Made by a program: the position numbers and the translations under genes
Notes under the pieces: model-generated
Database searches by the model: none
What the model was told of the DNA's origin: nothing
The model's input: the letters and a program-made list of their open reading frames with translations, nothing else
Shown here: positions 4,056-15,821 of the stretch, piece by piece
Position numbering within the stretch: position 1 is the stretch's first letter
How the letters are laid out: the number at the start of each line of letters is the position of its first letter
From: Candidatus Syntropharchaeum sp.
GTDB taxonomy: Archaea; Halobacteriota; Syntropharchaeia; Syntropharchaeales; Syntropharchaeaceae
NCBI GenBank assembly: GCA_026134025.1
Contig: JAOQII010000018.1
Location: 1-32,131, forward strand
Direction: 5' to 3'
DNA length: 32,131 nt

Positions 4056-4805
4056 CTAAAGACGTCTCAGCGCATCAAGGATTACATCCTCGCTCTCATC
4101 CCGTATAACCTCATCAAACGCCTCAACATCCTCGAATATCTCAAGTCCCCGAATGATAACTGCAGGTGTACCGTCACCACCTTCTCCCATCATGAGGTTT
4201 GCAAACCCGGCAATCTCATCGATTATAGCCTCATTCGTGATCGTAAGGACGTTTCCAAATAGATCAGAAAGTCCAATCCAGTTCTTACACGGCGACATCC
4301 CTGATGCACCGATCGCAACACCTGTCTGTCCAACTCTGAAAGCTCTCCCATTTGTGTCGGTGATGATGACCGTAACTTTCCGTCCCGCCTCATCAAATAT
4401 CCTTGATCTGATCTCTGCCGCAGTTTTTGATGGATCTTGAGGGAGGATAAGTAACTTTCCCGCTTCGATATTGGATCTATCGATGCCTGAGCTTACACAG
4501 ATATGCCCATCTTCTCTTCGAACGAGCATGAATGGTGCCTCGATCAGAACCTCCTCACACTCATCAAGAACAGCCTCAACAAATCTCGGATCTTCATCGA
4601 GTTTGGAAGCGATTCTCATAGCCTCAGCAGAGGGTGTGATATCTGCGATCTCACGCACCTTCCCCATCGTTTTTGAGATCACGGTTGATGCGATAACCAG
4701 GATATCGAAATCTTCAAACTCGACCCTATCAAGTATCATACCAACAAGATCATCGCCCTCAGATATCAGCGGAAGATCATCGACCGTGAAAGCCTCGATT
4801 TTCAT
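4056..4805 (-). CDS. cofE: Coenzyme F420-0:L-glutamate ligase
   Basis: Adds L-glutamate residues to F420-0 in a GTP-dependent reaction, completing the F420 cofactor used by methanogen redox enzymes. The 249-aa protein is the stand-alone archaeal form, without the FbiB nitroreductase extension. Recognisable family blocks are LILPQDPSKTAAEIRSRI, VTVIITDTNGRAFRVGQTG (metal/GTP site), VAIGASGM and LFGNVLTITNEAIIDEIAG. It is the last gene of a four-gene minus-strand operon, starting 9 nt after the DUF35 gene. The ATG at 4805 has GGCGGT just upstream. Why F420 ligase sits with a thiolase-fold/DUF35 pair is not obvious; this may be operon packing rather than a shared pathway. Confidence 0.93.
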   Translation of the reverse strand: MKIEAFTVDDLPLISEGDDLVGMILDRVEFEDFDILVIASTVISKTMGKVREIADITPSAEAMRIASKLDEDPRFVEAVLDECEEVLIEAPFMLVRREDGHICVSSGIDRSNIEAGKLLILPQDPSKTAAEIRSRIFDEAGRKVTVIITDTNGRAFRVGQTGVAIGASGMSPCKNWIGLSDLFGNVLTITNEAIIDEIAGFANLMMGEGGDGTPAVIIRGLEIFEDVEAFDEVIRDESEDVILDALRRL

Positions 4806-4814
4806 ACCGCCAAC

Positions 4815-5222
4815 CTACACCAGAACCGCATAAATATCACGCATCCTGCAAGCACCTTCTCTGAATTTCACTTCAACCCGTGCACCACATACAAGATCGT
4901 CGAAATCCACCTCAAGACGCATCATCAAACTCGTACTGCATCCATCCACCCTGATAAGCCCTAAAATTAACGGCAGATCATCGAGATGCTCCTGTGTGCT
5001 GAGACCAAGGAGTGTATAGGACTCAAGAACCCCCCTGGGCTCAAGCTCAATCCATTCGGTCTCAGCGAGCCTGCACTCCTGAGATGGGCAGTGTGCTCTT
5101 GGTGGACAGTACACCCTTTCACACGCAGGGCATCTTGTGCCATATAACCTCTTCTCCCTCAAGCCCTGGAAGAACGGTGCGATCATACCCCAATCATCGC
5201 TGTATTCAAGCAGAAAACCCAT
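4815..5222 (-). CDS. DUF35 OB-fold / zinc-ribbon protein, partner of thiolase-like protein
   Basis: 135-aa protein of the DUF35 family. An N-terminal helix (residues about 10-25) is followed by a zinc ribbon with four cysteines (CPACERVYCPPRAHCPSQEC contains CxxC and later cysteines, about residues 35-54). A C-terminal OB fold follows from about residue 60 (GVLESYTLLGL onwards). In archaea such proteins bind thiolase-fold enzymes; the solved acetoacetyl-CoA thiolase/HMG-CoA synthase complex uses DUF35 as the bridging CoA-binding scaffold, and ChsH2-DUF35 binds the aldolase Ltp2. The thiolase-like gene is directly upstream (9 nt), so a two-protein complex is likely. No HMG-CoA synthase gene is adjacent. 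The ATG at 5222 has a full AGGAGG 5 nt upstream. Confidence 0.87.
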   Translation of the reverse strand: MGFLLEYSDDWGMIAPFFQGLREKRLYGTRCPACERVYCPPRAHCPSQECRLAETEWIELEPRGVLESYTLLGLSTQEHLDDLPLILGLIRVDGCSTSLMMRLEVDFDDLVCGARVEVKFREGACRMRDIYAVLV

Positions 5223-5231
5223 AAATTCCTC

Positions 5232-6380
5232 CTATCTTCCAAATATGCCGACAAAAACTGCTGTTCCAACCCCACCATGACTGTGGACAAGCCCACGTGC
5301 TGCACCATCGACCTGGTTACAGCTCTCGCCCCTGAGCTGCCAGAAGATCTCTGCAACCTCTGCGACAGGGGATGCTCCGATCGGATGTCCCATCCCTTCA
5401 AGCCCTCCACTCATGTTAACAGGTAATCGTCCTCCGATCTCAGCCTCTTCGATGAATTGGACTCCTTTTCCCTTATCGGTAAAGCCGAGATCCTCGTAAC
5501 TCTGGAGCTCGACGGTATCGAAGGAGTCGTAGATCTCGGCACAATCAATCTCGCTTACAGGATTCTCAACCCCAGCCATCCTGTATGCCTTCCTGGATGC
5601 GCTTCTGCAAGCAGGGAAATTTTCAATCTCCACGCGATCGCCAAGACGCATCGTATCTGTTGCGATTCCAAGTCCTTCGACAAAGACAGGATCGTCTGTT
5701 ATCTCCTTTGCACGCTCTCTTGATGAGAGGATCAGGACCGCTGCACCATCTGAGATCAGTGAGCAGTCAAGTACCTTCAATGGGTATGCAATGAGCCTTG
5801 ATTCGAGGACGTCATCGACGGTTATCCGTTTTTTCCACTGGCCCTTCGGGTTTTTGAGTGCGTTGTTACGGTTCTTGACCGCGATTCTCGCAAAGTCTTC
5901 CTCACGCTCTCCATAGAGATACATGTGCCTGACAGCCATCATGCCGTAACACGCGGTGTAGATCGCGCCGACGTCAAAGTCAAAGTCTATGTCAAGCCCC
6001 CGCGCTATAAGCTCATTCGCCATCCTCGATCGGTAGAGACTCATCTTCTCCCAGCCTGCAAGAAGAACGGTCTCTGAAAGTCCGCTCTTGATGAGTGAAC
6101 AGGCAGCATAAAGTGCTGATGCACCCGACCCGCCCCCGTTCTCGACCCTGAATGCCGCTTTTGGTCGATGTCCGAGATAATCCTGGATGATCCACTCCTC
6201 TGCAACCTGCCGTGCATCGATGAAGTAGGAGGTTACAAGCGTATCAATATCATCCAGTACAAGTCCTTTTGTGCTTTCAAGTGCATCAAGGAGCGCTTCT
6301 GAAACAAGCTCCTCTGCACGCTTGTTGATTCTGTAATCAAAGTTTGTCATCCCAGCAGCAACGAGTGCAACATCTCTCAT
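5232..6380 (-). CDS. Thiolase-fold (SCP2-thiolase-like) protein lacking the catalytic cysteine
   Basis: 382-aa protein with the full thiolase fold, of the sort usually annotated acetyl-CoA acetyltransferase in archaea. Ordinary thiolases carry the nucleophilic Cys in a motif such as VEAACASGG. Here residues 79-86 read VENGGGSG, so Gly83 replaces it. GHPIGA (331-336) keeps the oxyanion-site His. The usual His of the HDxF block is Tyr284 (EIYDSF). The C-terminal Cys block is replaced by HSHGGVG (366-372). This enzyme therefore probably does not form an acyl-cysteine. Related cysteine-less thiolase-fold proteins include the Ltp aldolases that work with DUF35 partners. A CoA-thioester aldolase or decarboxylase-like role is my inference. 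DUF35 follows directly. The start is ATG with GAGG 8 nt upstream. Confidence 0.85.
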   Translation of the reverse strand: MRDVALVAAGMTNFDYRINKRAEELVSEALLDALESTKGLVLDDIDTLVTSYFIDARQVAEEWIIQDYLGHRPKAAFRVENGGGSGASALYAACSLIKSGLSETVLLAGWEKMSLYRSRMANELIARGLDIDFDFDVGAIYTACYGMMAVRHMYLYGEREEDFARIAVKNRNNALKNPKGQWKKRITVDDVLESRLIAYPLKVLDCSLISDGAAVLILSSRERAKEITDDPVFVEGLGIATDTMRLGDRVEIENFPACRSASRKAYRMAGVENPVSEIDCAEIYDSFDTVELQSYEDLGFTDKGKGVQFIEEAEIGGRLPVNMSGGLEGMGHPIGASPVAEVAEIFWQLRGESCNQVDGAARGLVHSHGGVGTAVFVGIFGR

Positions 6381-6401: not shown

Positions 6402-6662
6402 TCATTTCAAGCTTTTCCGTTCCTCCTCTGCAATAAACTCCTTAAGTCGTGCGAACATGTAATCCTTCGCTTTCGTAACCTCCTCAAAGCTTCCTCTAAG
6501 TGTTGGCTTGCTTTCATCACCGTCTACACATGAAGGTCGCACGTCGAACCGATCGAGTGCCTCTCCGATTATATCCATCGGTAACCCATCGGGAAGGAGA
6601 AGATCGAAAAGCTCTTCACCCTCTTCGCTTTTGCTCCCCGCTCCATTTTCATCCTCTCTCAT
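6402..6662 (-). CDS. Uncharacterised 86-aa acidic protein
   Basis: I do not recognise this protein. The first ~20 residues are a charged, probably disordered tail (MREDENGAGSKSEEGEELFD). The remainder looks like a compact alpha/beta domain (LLLPDGLPMDIIGEALDRF, then LRGSFEEVTKAKDYMFARLKEFI). The LRGSFEEVTKAK pattern could be a small ligand- or nucleic-acid-binding fold, but this is not established. The start ATG at 6662 has GGTGA 5 nt upstream, and the stop lies 21 nt before the thiolase-like gene. It is therefore the first gene of the operon that continues with thiolase-like, DUF35 and cofE. It may be an accessory subunit. Confidence 0.7.
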   Translation of the reverse strand: MREDENGAGSKSEEGEELFDLLLPDGLPMDIIGEALDRFDVRPSCVDGDESKPTLRGSFEEVTKAKDYMFARLKEFIAEEERKSLK

Positions 6663-6751
6663 GCATTCACCTGATCCTGAGCGATAACAAACCTTTTATC
6701 AGGGGAGATTATATAAGATTCACTGAGTAAATAAAAAAGGGGATCTTACTC
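6663..6751. promoter_or_regulatory. Divergent promoter region with a near-symmetric TATA element
   Basis: The 89-nt gap separates two divergent genes. A single TATA-like element TTATATAAG at 6709-6717 reads similarly on both strands, about 35 nt from the plus-strand GTG (6752) and about 47 nt from the minus-strand ATG (6662). It could serve either direction. AGGGGATC upstream of the GTG and GGTGA upstream of the ATG are the likely ribosome binding sites. The short inverted repeat GATAA/TTATC (6683-6687 and 6696-6700) flanks the minus-strand start region. Confidence 0.5.
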
Positions 6752-7708
6752 GTGGCTATACCGATCTTCAATAAACGCGCGAATTCTTCGGCAGATGAGT
6801 ACTGGAAGCTAAAATCGCTCAAAGGAGAAGGTGGAAAAACCAAGGAGCAGGAACTTGAAGAGATAGAGAAGCTTCTCGAAAAGGGCATCGGGGGAAAACT
6901 TCGAGATGACCTTGAGAACCGGGCGAGCCAGCTCAGAAGCGAGGTTATGAGTGAGTTTGAGGTTGACCGAAGGATGAGGGATGTGATGGATGATATCCTT
7001 GATGCCACATCCAAGTTCGCTCCTAACCTTGAGCCAAGAACGGATGAGATCTATCCTTATGACGCCAAACAGGGACCGATCCATGAGGCATATTTCAGGG
7101 CGATTACAGAGATCCTCTTTGGTAAAGCAGATGATCATATCGAGTTTGATGACGCGATCATCTCATCGAAGGGTATAGAGATTAAAAACAAACAATCTGA
7201 CGAGATCGAGTCGCTCAAAGTCCTGAACCGAGTCACGATGCTCATGCAGGAATCTGCAAAGAAGAAACTTGGAATATTCAACCAGTTTGATGAGGCATGG
7301 TCGAATCTGGTACAGCAGGACTTTGCATACAGGGCTTTTGAGATGATCGTGAAGAGCAGGGAGGGTATGAACCTCTCTGAGATCCAGGATCTCTGCCACA
7401 GGGTCGATCAGGAGTACCAGGAGCTTGTCAGGGACATCTATGATGAAAAACTTGAGAAAGAGCTTGAGGGAATGCTTTCAGATGTTATCTGGCAGAACAG
7501 GTTGATTGAACGCTCAAATGACGGACTTTACAGGGCGACAGAGTTTGGGAAGTGGATGTGGGAGCTATGCAAAGACGATCATCATGTGAAGATCGAGCGG
7601 GAGCCCAGGGGTCGGAGTTCGCTCGATAAACTCAAGGCACTTGGGGGGTTTGGCAGGAGCGATAGAGACAAAAAAAGCGGTAAGGTGGGTGGAAAATGGA
7701 AGCTGTGA
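6752..7708 (+). CDS. Uncharacterised 318-aa protein, predicted helical with winged-helix-like C-terminal part
   Basis: I do not recognise the family. There is no signal peptide or membrane segment, so it is probably cytoplasmic. Residues about 20-75 are highly charged and helical (EQELEEIEKLLEKGIGG), likely a coiled coil. A middle domain (about 95-220) includes GPIHEAYFRAITEILFGKAD and LNRVTMLMQESAKKKLG. Residues about 215-275 resemble a winged helix (DVIWQNRLIERSNDGLYRAT). The C-terminal ~35 residues are basic and glycine-rich (GGFGRSDRDKKSGKVGGKWK), suggesting contact with nucleic acid or acidic membrane lipid. The start is a GTG with AGGGGATC upstream. Its end overlaps the next gene by 13 nt, so the two are probably translated together and act together. 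Confidence 0.8.
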   Translation: MAIPIFNKRANSSADEYWKLKSLKGEGGKTKEQELEEIEKLLEKGIGGKLRDDLENRASQLRSEVMSEFEVDRRMRDVMDDILDATSKFAPNLEPRTDEIYPYDAKQGPIHEAYFRAITEILFGKADDHIEFDDAIISSKGIEIKNKQSDEIESLKVLNRVTMLMQESAKKKLGIFNQFDEAWSNLVQQDFAYRAFEMIVKSREGMNLSEIQDLCHRVDQEYQELVRDIYDEKLEKELEGMLSDVIWQNRLIERSNDGLYRATEFGKWMWELCKDDHHVKIEREPRGRSSLDKLKALGGFGRSDRDKKSGKVGGKWKL

Positions 7709-8505
7709 AGACAACAGTCGTTGATAAAGTTGTTTCATACTCAAATTCAAGGTTCTTTCCATGGAATATTCTTCTTGAACCGCTTGAACTCAACGCGATT
7801 GAGCATTACATGCCACTCGCGATACAGGCAGCATGGATGAAGGGCAGCTACAAGGATATGGACAGGATCCAGCATCTGATAGGTGAGGATGTGAAGATGG
7901 TGGTGAATGACTATCTCCTCTCTCCATACAGCAGGGAAGCAGAGGAGATACATCGTGAGTTTGCAGCTGACTACCCGTTCGCATACACACAGGCACTCAT
8001 CTTTACGCGGCTTTTTGATACATCTCGTGATCTAAGGCTTCGTGACATCATCGATATCGCGAGAATCGCAGAATTGATAGGTGTTGACATATCCTCGTTC
8101 AATCGACGCGAAGAGCAGATAAAAGAGCTTATATCGGTCTATAAGAAGCGGATGAAAAAACCGAGATCGTTCACAAAGCGTATCATTGATCAGAAGGTTG
8201 TATCTGCAGATGGCGAGATCATCGGGGTTGTCAGGGATATAGTGTTTGATCTTAATACAGGAGATCTCATTGAGCTTTTAGTTGCACCGAGAAAGGGCGC
8301 TGACCAATCGATCTTCAAGGATATCTATGAGAAAAAAGATTATGAGGGGTTAATACAGAAAACGATTCGAGGACTTTTCACATTCTTCAGGGGGCTTTCT
8401 GGGACGGGAGATGCTACAATGGAATATGAAACGTATCTTGCAGGAATCTCAATAGAGAATGTCCATGTTAGCCTCTACAATGACTATGTGGTCTTTAATC
8501 GCTGA
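7696..8505 (+). CDS. Uncharacterised protein with C-terminal PRC-barrel domain
   Basis: 269 aa. The N-terminal ~155 residues form a helical domain I cannot assign (NAIEHYMPLAIQAAWMKGSY; RLFDTSRDLRLRDIIDIARI). From about residue 160 to the end is a PRC-barrel (SFTKRIIDQKVVSADGEIIG, VVRDIVFDLNTGDLIELLVAP, then ENVHVSLYNDYVVFN), split by a lysine-rich insert. PRC-barrels occur in RimM, photosynthetic reaction centre H subunit and archaeal proteins including haloarchaeal cell-division proteins, usually as binding modules. The ATG lies inside the upstream gene with GGTGG before it, and the overlap implies coupling. The gene ends 13 nt from the convergent rfcS stop. Function is unknown; RNA processing, division or membrane scaffolding are all open. 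Confidence 0.82.
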   Translation: MEAVKTTVVDKVVSYSNSRFFPWNILLEPLELNAIEHYMPLAIQAAWMKGSYKDMDRIQHLIGEDVKMVVNDYLLSPYSREAEEIHREFAADYPFAYTQALIFTRLFDTSRDLRLRDIIDIARIAELIGVDISSFNRREEQIKELISVYKKRMKKPRSFTKRIIDQKVVSADGEIIGVVRDIVFDLNTGDLIELLVAPRKGADQSIFKDIYEKKDYEGLIQKTIRGLFTFFRGLSGTGDATMEYETYLAGISIENVHVSLYNDYVVFNR

Positions 8506-14423: not shown

Positions 14424-15821
14424 ATGGTAAAGTATAAGCTTTTTGCAGTAGTATTTGCGCTGATTGCACTCGCCACATTCTCGATTGGATGCATGGAATC
14501 TATAAATATCGAGGAAGCGAGGCCGACCATCACACTTATAGACGACCTTGGACGGGAAGTTACAATCCCACAAAATCCTGAACGAATCGTATCGCTCGCA
14601 CCGAGCACAACAGAAATTGTATTTGCGATCGGGGCTGGTGATAGAGTTGTCGGGGTTGATGAGATCTCAAATTATCCTCCAGAGGTTGAAGCAATCCCGA
14701 AGGTTGGAAGCTATGCGACGATAAACACTGAAAGGGTCGTTGATCTCGATCCTGATCTTGTACTTGCGGCTTATGGAAATGGAATTGAGACGATCGATAC
14801 ATTATCTGATCTTGGAGTGCCTGTTATCGGACTCAACCCCACGACACTGAACGAAACATTACAGAGCATCAATCTCGTCGGGGAGGCCACTGGATGCGAG
14901 GAGAATGCGACCATGCTCACCAGTAATATGCGTATGCAGATCGATGCGGTCAAAGCTGCAGCAGCAAAAGTAGCATACGAGCCGAGTGTGCTCTATGTGA
15001 TCTGGCATGATCCACTCTACTCAGCAGGCAACACTACATTTGAGGATGAGATGATGCGTATCTGCAGAGCTGAGAATATCGCATCTGATCTTCCTGGATA
15101 CAGCATAATGACACTTGAGAACGTGATTAAGCGTGATCCAGAGGTTATAATCACGACAAGTGGTGGCGGGATGGGTGTAGAGGAGACAAACCTCTCATAC
15201 GACTATATAACAACGGATCCGAGATTTGCAGGCATCAAAGCGGTTAAAGATGGGAAAGTTTATGTGATCGATGCCGATATCGCATGCAGACCTGGACCAA
15301 GGATCGTTGATGCGCTTAAGGAGATATTTGGGTATATTCATCCTGAACTCCAAAATTATATAAATGAAGAAGGGATAGAAAAAAATGGTATGAGACTTAC
15401 AAGCACCGCTTTTGAAGAGGGTGGTATGATTCCTTCGAGATATACCTGCGATGGGGAGGATATAAATCCACCGCTTAAGATAGAGGAGGTTCCAGAAGGT
15501 GCAGTAACGCTGGTTCTGATCGTCGACGATCCAGATGCACCGATGGGCACATGGGATCACTGGTTGGTCTGGAACATCCCAATAATCTCAACAATCGAGG
15601 AAAATAGCGTACCCGGCGTGCAAGGAAAAAATTCCTGGGGAAGAAACGACTATGGCGGACCGTGTCCACCATCAGGAACACACAGATACTTCTTCAAGCT
15701 GTATGCCATTGATACCACGCTGGATATTGGAGAAAACTCGACGAAAGAAGATCTTGAAAGTGCGATGGAAGGGCATATCCTCTCCCACACGCATCTCGTT
15801 GGGTTGTACTCGAGGGCGTAA
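14424..15821 (+). CDS. Lipoprotein: BtuF-like ABC substrate-binding protein fused to a PEBP/YbhB domain
   Basis: 465 aa exported and anchored outside the membrane. Residues 1-22 are a lipoprotein signal ending FSIG-Cys23. Residues about 35-310 are a helical-backbone (cluster A-II) binding protein as in vitamin B12 or iron-siderophore uptake: DDLGREVTIPQNPERIVSLA, then VVGVDEISNYP, RVVDLDPDLVLA and a C-terminal IHPEL. Residues 323-465 are a complete phosphatidylethanolamine-binding protein domain of the YbhB/YbcL type, with DPDAPMGTWDHWLVWNIP and GPCPPSGTHRYFFKLYA. The junction is in one open frame next to an A7 run (15379-15385). No permease or ATPase gene is near, so its transporter must be elsewhere or it acts alone. 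I know of no common protein with this fusion. Confidence 0.88.
   Translation: MVKYKLFAVVFALIALATFSIGCMESINIEEARPTITLIDDLGREVTIPQNPERIVSLAPSTTEIVFAIGAGDRVVGVDEISNYPPEVEAIPKVGSYATINTERVVDLDPDLVLAAYGNGIETIDTLSDLGVPVIGLNPTTLNETLQSINLVGEATGCEENATMLTSNMRMQIDAVKAAAAKVAYEPSVLYVIWHDPLYSAGNTTFEDEMMRICRAENIASDLPGYSIMTLENVIKRDPEVIITTSGGGMGVEETNLSYDYITTDPRFAGIKAVKDGKVYVIDADIACRPGPRIVDALKEIFGYIHPELQNYINEEGIEKNGMRLTSTAFEEGGMIPSRYTCDGEDINPPLKIEEVPEGAVTLVLIVDDPDAPMGTWDHWLVWNIPIISTIEENSVPGVQGKNSWGRNDYGGPCPPSGTHRYFFKLYAIDTTLDIGENSTKEDLESAMEGHILSHTHLVGLYSRA

Follow-up and report, generated by a model that had tools for sequence, protein, structure and literature searches.

Thiolase-fold proteins that lack the catalytic cysteine and work as aldolases alongside a DUF35 protein are already known. 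The experimentally proven examples, the steroid aldolases Ltp2-ChsH2(DUF35) and Sal-Shy(DUF35), stem from steroid-degrading bacteria and have a glycine at the position of the thiolase nucleophile. Ltp2 uses the tyrosine of its YDHF motif (Y294) as the base and Y344 as the acid; for Sal, the base is Y302 and the acid C304 (PMC12329534). A further protein, TbSLP, carries a tyrosine (Y297) at the same motif position. TbSLP decarboxylates malonyl-CoA slowly and was proposed to be an aldolase by the authors of the Sal study (PMC12329534).

We describe here a thiolase-fold protein and its DUF35 neighbor encoded in a stretch of 32,131 nucleotides (the window) from Candidatus Syntropharchaeum sp. The class Syntrophoarchaeia unites Ca. 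Syntrophoarchaeum and Ca. Alkanophagales with ANME-1, with four Acr copies in the first and three in the second (PMC10322722). The window genome has four McrA/AcrA genes, as does the only other genome of the same genus (G001); three are found in G019, which belongs to another family, and one in G003, a genome of the largest family. By these counts, too, a Ca. Syntrophoarchaeum species is the most probable source of the window.

The cassette and its genomic setting

The cassette is a row of three genes on the reverse strand. At its head stands an ORF of 86 amino acids (6402..6662) with no family match, followed by the gene of the thiolase-fold protein (5232..6380), which is of the SCP-x type, has 382 amino acids, begins with ATG and contains no internal stops. 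The gene of the DUF35 partner (4815..5222) begins after a further 9 bp, directly behind the thiolase gene as the preliminary description had it. This partner of 135 amino acids consists of a zinc ribbon (CxxC-x10-CxxxxC) and an OB fold and matches the Pfam domains zf-ChsH2 (2e-9) and OB_ChsH2_C (1e-8), while the thiolase-fold protein matches Thiolase_N (PF00108, 1e-15) and Thiolase_C_1 (PF22691, 1e-33). Downstream of the cassette lies cofE (4056..4805, reverse strand), the gene for coenzyme F420-0:L-glutamate ligase. Upstream, alignment with G001 points to a putative promoter region (6663..6751, reverse strand) with the TATA-like sequences CTTATATAAT and TGATAAAAGGTTTGT. Two divergent genes at 6752-8505, for a protein of 318 amino acids without a family and a PRC-barrel protein of 269, have this promoter region in common with the cassette, and both are kept in G001 at 66-68% identity. 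Elsewhere in the window (14424-15821), a single ORF encodes two domains, first a periplasmic-binding-protein domain (PF01497) and then a phosphatidylethanolamine-binding-protein domain (PF01161).

The corresponding region of G001 is colinear, but the genes for the 86-residue, thiolase-fold and DUF35 proteins are absent from it, and cofE directly follows the intergenic region. This intergenic region, with GATCCCC and both TATA-like sequences, is conserved before cofE in G001 and before the 86-residue gene in the window, so that exactly the three cassette genes separate cofE from an existing promoter region. In G005, from a related family, cofE is likewise found without the three genes. Insertion of the three genes is therefore a simpler reading than the alternative, their loss in G001. 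Because the same promoter stands directly before cofE in G001, the neighborhood of cofE says little about function; a role deduced from linkage to cofE was considered and set aside, the linkage looking incidental.

A gene that is missing at the same locus of a genome from the same genus, and that has no close orthologues among 58 genomes of the class and 394 of the phylum, could be a relic or a new arrival without function. We hold this to be very improbable, as both frames are intact and tightly spaced behind a conserved promoter region, residues typical of their relatives are retained in both proteins, and G+C content and GC3 are near those of neighboring genes. The 86-residue protein, which the preliminary description offered as a possible third subunit, fared less well. 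Its distant homologues in six other genomes (27-32% identity), all from the same class, lie in unrelated contexts, with neighbors such as lysA/moeA, an MCM helicase or mutS and no thiolase gene alongside, and none was noted near the relatives of the thiolase-fold protein. It was dropped as a candidate subunit.

The active site of the thiolase-fold protein

The window protein aligns over its full length with solved thiolases, and its best matches are archaeal and SCP2-type enzymes (E about 1e-55 to 1e-39). Its AF2 model (pLDDT 81.6, pTM 0.86) is poor at residues 115-138 and 244-253. Foldseek comparisons of this model give TM scores of 0.8-0.9 against thiolases and aldolases, with 7YVY, 6ESQ, 4YZO, 4U4E, 6OK1, TbSLP and 9MYR among the top matches. 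The protein is thus predicted to have the two-domain thiolase fold, a model that is silent on the reaction.

Residues were compared in an alignment of 69 proteins, 32 of which are canonical Cys-bearing thiolases. At position 83 (codon 6132..6134, reverse strand), within VENGGGSG (residues 79-86), the nucleophilic Cys is found in all 32 canonical rows and is replaced by Gly in the window protein. The same Gly is present in 18/18 rows of its closest Cys-free relatives, groups A and B (see below), as well as in Ltp2, Sal and 4U4E. The loss of the nucleophile claimed at the outset withstood re-registration of the alignment, which uncovered no alternative active-site Cys. It is most improbable that the protein is an ordinary thiolase using another nucleophile, for instance Ser85 or the non-aligned Cys93 or Cys144. 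The protein does have several cysteines, and Cys144 lies in the stretch Tyr141-Tyr145, which the alignment places near residues of the Sal active site; however, none of them is conserved as a catalytic position, every A/B row has Tyr at residue 144, and Gly occupies position 83 throughout the clade. Two proteins from genomes of the same phylum, both of family f10 (L036 and L056), have instead an Asp for the nucleophilic Cys (ETGDASGG and ENADASGG) and keep the His of the HDxF motif.

The second catalytic residue is changed as well. At position 284 (codon 5529..5531, reverse strand), the HDxF His is present in all 32 canonical rows and is Tyr in the window protein (IYDSF, residues 283-287), in agreement with the preliminary description. 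Taken together, these replacements go well past what chance would give. Of the residues that the window protein shares with catalytic SCP-x thiolases, apart from the fold, His332 of the GHP loop is retained (codon 5385..5387, reverse strand). The C-terminal block HSHGGVG (residues 366-372) is real, although it had been described as the site of a missing Cys: archaeal SCP-x thiolases have H-N-x-G-G here and also lack a Cys, so the notable residue is the additional His368 (codons of His366-Ser367-His368, 5277..5285, reverse strand). This His is invariant in the clade, whereas canonical thiolases mostly have a hydrophobic residue.

The window protein keeps every clade-specific residue (G82, G83, Y141, R245, Q293, S367 and H368). 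Among the 87 positions invariant in groups A and B, it retains 69, compared with 57-61 in five Cys-bearing thiolases and 31-38 in Ltp2, Sal and 4U4E. This combination argues for an active site that has been rebuilt and is still constrained, rather than one in decay, as far as conservation can tell.

How closely does this site resemble that of the steroid aldolases? Like Ltp2 (6OK1) and Sal (9MYR), the window protein has a Cys-free thiolase fold with Gly at the nucleophile position and a DUF35 protein alongside, and its Tyr284 aligns with the YDxF tyrosines Y294 and Y302; TbSLP has Y297 at the same motif position. Arg195 aligns with Sal R216, which binds the CoA pyrophosphate (Sal numbering here carries an offset derived from Y302). 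The acids do not correspond, and this was counted against an aldolase: the column of Ltp2 Tyr344 holds His332 in the window protein (Gln352 in Sal), and that of Sal Cys304 holds Ser286. The putative thiolase 4U4E from Sphaerobacter thermophilus comes closest in its motifs, with an identical IYDSF, Gly in the nucleophile loop and the GHP-loop His, but phylogeny places it with Ltp2 and Sal. The archaeal thiolase-DUF35 system encoded beside HMG-CoA synthase is near in fold (TM about 0.88) and, unlike the window protein, has the catalytic Cys and an HDCF motif. ST0096 from Sulfolobus tokodaii (4YZO) is an archaeal thiolase-like protein with Ser in place of the Cys; it differs in keeping the HD motif and in being placed among Cys-bearing rows.

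Across the alignment, Tyr at position 284 occurs in 15 Cys-free rows and in none of the 32 Cys-bearing ones. This association between Tyr and Cys loss is not significant, as there are too few independent events (three well-supported independent pairs). Outside the clade, proteins from two other families of the class (L151 in G025 and L146 in G004) belong to another Cys-free thiolase type, whose HD position holds Tyr (YAPFSPQEL) and which forms a deep, separate branch.

The cysteine-free clade and its gene neighborhoods

In the maximum-likelihood tree, the window protein and groups A and B form a single Cys-free clade (support 100/98) adjoining Cys-bearing archaeal thiolases, with the window protein sister to group B (99/94). 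The clade holds when the motif columns are removed (96), without group B (95) and without group A (99). Group A comprises proteins of about 420 amino acids from Thermoplasma and its relatives (RIEGGGATGG ... HDAYT ... HSHAGTG) and corresponds to NCBIfam PRK06365; group B comprises proteins of about 416 amino acids from other Thermoplasmatota (RVENGGNTGG ... HDAFS ... NSHAGTG). Seven of 297 Acidobacteriota genomes also encode a group A protein, 61-75% identical to that of Thermoplasma; the gene appears to have passed between Thermoplasmata and Acidobacteriota and hence across domains. Judged from these sequences, the loss of Cys is no novelty of the window genome but the defining trait of a clade widespread in Thermoplasmatota and found in some Acidobacteriota.

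PRK06365 (NF004982), annotated in Thermoplasmata as a 'thiolase domain-containing protein', shares with the window protein the Gly at the nucleophile position, the HSH residues and a DUF35 gene directly downstream. The two differ in that identity is about 40-45%, that group A has an insertion after position 250 and that its members keep His (HDAY), except for L175; the score of the window protein against the PRK06365 equivalog is 352.7 bits, below the curated cut-off of 695. A literature search returned nothing on the Thermoplasma thiolase-DUF35 pair. No close orthologue of the window protein was found in Thermoplasmatota (293 genomes) or in the class and phylum, the best matches reaching 42-45%. 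The same was true of the phylum of a Bathyarchaeota match, L065 (398 genomes), where all matches listed were Cys-bearing.

Ltp2, Sal and 4U4E group in another clade, also with support 100/98, so that any mechanistic similarity would be convergent. The parallel first drawn with Ltp2 and ChsH2-DUF35 thus stands for the Tyr, which takes the place of the base in Ltp2, Sal and TbSLP, but not for kinship. Moreover, unlike the known aldolases, the window protein has no fused or adjacent MaoC hydratase and no steroid cluster: its DUF35 partner contains no MaoC domain and has no MaoC hydratase beside it, and the thiolase gene has no hydratase, mutase or dehydrogenase gene next to it in the window. The clade as a whole lacks two defining features of the known aldolases. 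From its sequences it is a separate lineage, mostly archaeal as far as sampled.

Pairing with DUF35 is constant. In all A/B loci (37/37, two of them from one genome), the next gene downstream, in the same orientation, encodes a DUF35 protein, which bears out the pairing suspected from the window. The best relatives of the window DUF35 protein are mostly the partners of A/B proteins, with some from bacterial Ltp3/4-like proteins, and its zinc knuckle CxxC-x10-CxxxxC is common to group B, while group A has CxxC. In group B, 14 of the 16 informative loci have a CoA-transferase or acyl-CoA synthetase gene no more than 5 kb upstream in the same orientation, 11 of them immediately upstream, and acyl-CoA dehydrogenases are often near. 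At L246, the locus that encodes the Tyr-bearing protein L175, an acyl-CoA dehydrogenase gene abuts the thiolase gene.

Could the protein instead be a non-catalytic subunit whose role is to bind acyl-CoA and hold another enzyme in place, as a partner of HMG-CoA synthase/thiolase or in a heterodimeric thiolase? Adjacent pairs of Cys-free thiolase-like genes do exist, both in Bathyarchaeota (L064_2/L064_3) and among bacterial Ltp3/Ltp4-like proteins. However, no second thiolase gene lies beside that of the window protein or was seen next to its A/B relatives, and the conserved pocket residues also speak against such a scaffold, which we regard as improbable. On other contigs, the window genome encodes HMG-CoA synthase paired with another thiolase (contig C19) and, in a beta-oxidation cluster, a Cys-bearing thiolase, a DUF35 protein, an enoyl-CoA hydratase and an acyl-CoA dehydrogenase. 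In the Bathyarchaeota loci L064 and L065, one Cys-free protein of the adjacent pair has RVFVGGGTG and YDPF and the second is without the loop.

A B12-dependent mutase recurs near members of the clade. In Acidobacteriota, four of the six informative loci show the order acyl-CoA dehydrogenase, mutase L, mutase S, thiolase-like protein, DUF35 (L284:5224-10713, L285, L286 and L288), followed in L284-L286 by a thioredoxin-like gene. In the group B locus L244, genes for a mutase, MeaB and a cobO-like protein are adjacent on the opposite strand. When columns were compared with MCM and HCM chains, the clade-associated mutases were found to have Phe at MCM Tyr89 and Gln at MCM Arg207, a pattern that we take to be that of isobutyryl-CoA mutase (Cracan/Banerjee; Jost 2015). 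The window genome (G000) encodes one such Phe/Gln mutase on contig C38 (L305:3661-5358); two further mutases, encoded on C4 and C22, are more distant. No Phe/Gln mutase was found in G001, which has no cassette. Outside Acidobacteriota, Phe/Gln is present in six of the seven clade genomes with aligned mutases (G000, G394, G489, G502, G585 and G605), the seventh (G530) showing the MCM pattern; conversely, G019 has a Phe/Gln mutase and no clade protein. The co-occurrence is suggestive, and within this genus it is based on a single genome pair. The L064 locus, too, carries a B12 mutase of the Phe/Gln type.

A putative C-C lyase and what it would mean

These neighborhoods of relatives are in line with the suggestion made at the outset that carbon-carbon chemistry on CoA thioesters is the most likely, if putative, role. 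More specifically, we would give about an even chance to the window protein being a non-covalent C-C lyase or aldolase that acts on acyl-CoA in complex with DUF35. This reading draws on the same Cys-to-Gly and His-to-Tyr changes in the proven aldolases Ltp2 and Sal. Within the clade, only the window protein and L175 have Tyr at position 284 among the sampled members, the others having His (HDAF/HDAY). Most simply, then, Tyr arose twice within the clade, and an aldolase is a weaker proposal for the clade as a whole than for the window protein.

That most members have lost only the Cys and keep the HD His favors another kind of CoA enzyme built on this fold, one that would also work without an acyl-cysteine but as a decarboxylating, Claisen-type, acyl-transfer or hydrolytic enzyme. 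The neighboring CoA-transferases and acyl-CoA synthetases would suit many acyl-CoA reactions. On the other side, decarboxylating condensing enzymes usually keep the Cys or replace it with Gln, and Gly is not their usual substitute. TbSLP, with the same Tyr, can be read either way, having slow malonyl-CoA decarboxylation and having itself been proposed as an aldolase by the authors of the Sal study (PMC12329534). We consider such an enzyme a real, though clearly lesser, possibility.

As an aldolase, the thiolase-fold protein would form a complex with DUF35 in the Ltp2-DUF35 or thiolase-DUF35 architecture, in which DUF35 would close the pocket for substrate and CoA as its second wall. Gly83 in the nucleophile loop would allow a CoA thioester to be held in the pocket and handled without an acyl-cysteine. 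Tyr284 may act as a general base on the beta-hydroxyl (retro-aldol) or as an acid on the carbonyl (aldol), and His332, His368 or both may protonate or stabilize the CoA enolate. The substrate would probably be a short or branched beta-hydroxyacyl-CoA, placing the enzyme in short or branched acyl-CoA metabolism. Such an activity would have originated inside the Cys-free clade near archaeal thiolases, independently of the steroid aldolases.

Whatever the reaction, this clade of archaea and some Acidobacteriota is separate from the proven aldolases, and it is made distinct by its constant DUF35 partner, its conserved active-site-loop residues and the operons that tie it to a B12 acyl-CoA mutase. 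A family annotated as 'thiolase' or 'acetyl-CoA acetyltransferase' is very probably neither. A broader and more doubtful proposal, which we put forward tentatively, is that the clade may be a second, separately evolved family of thiolase-fold/DUF35 C-C lyases (aldolases) that works with an isobutyryl-CoA-mutase-like B12 enzyme on branched short-chain beta-hydroxyacyl-CoAs. In a Ca. Syntrophoarchaeum-like genome, this would amount to a branch of alkane or branched-acid breakdown not described before.
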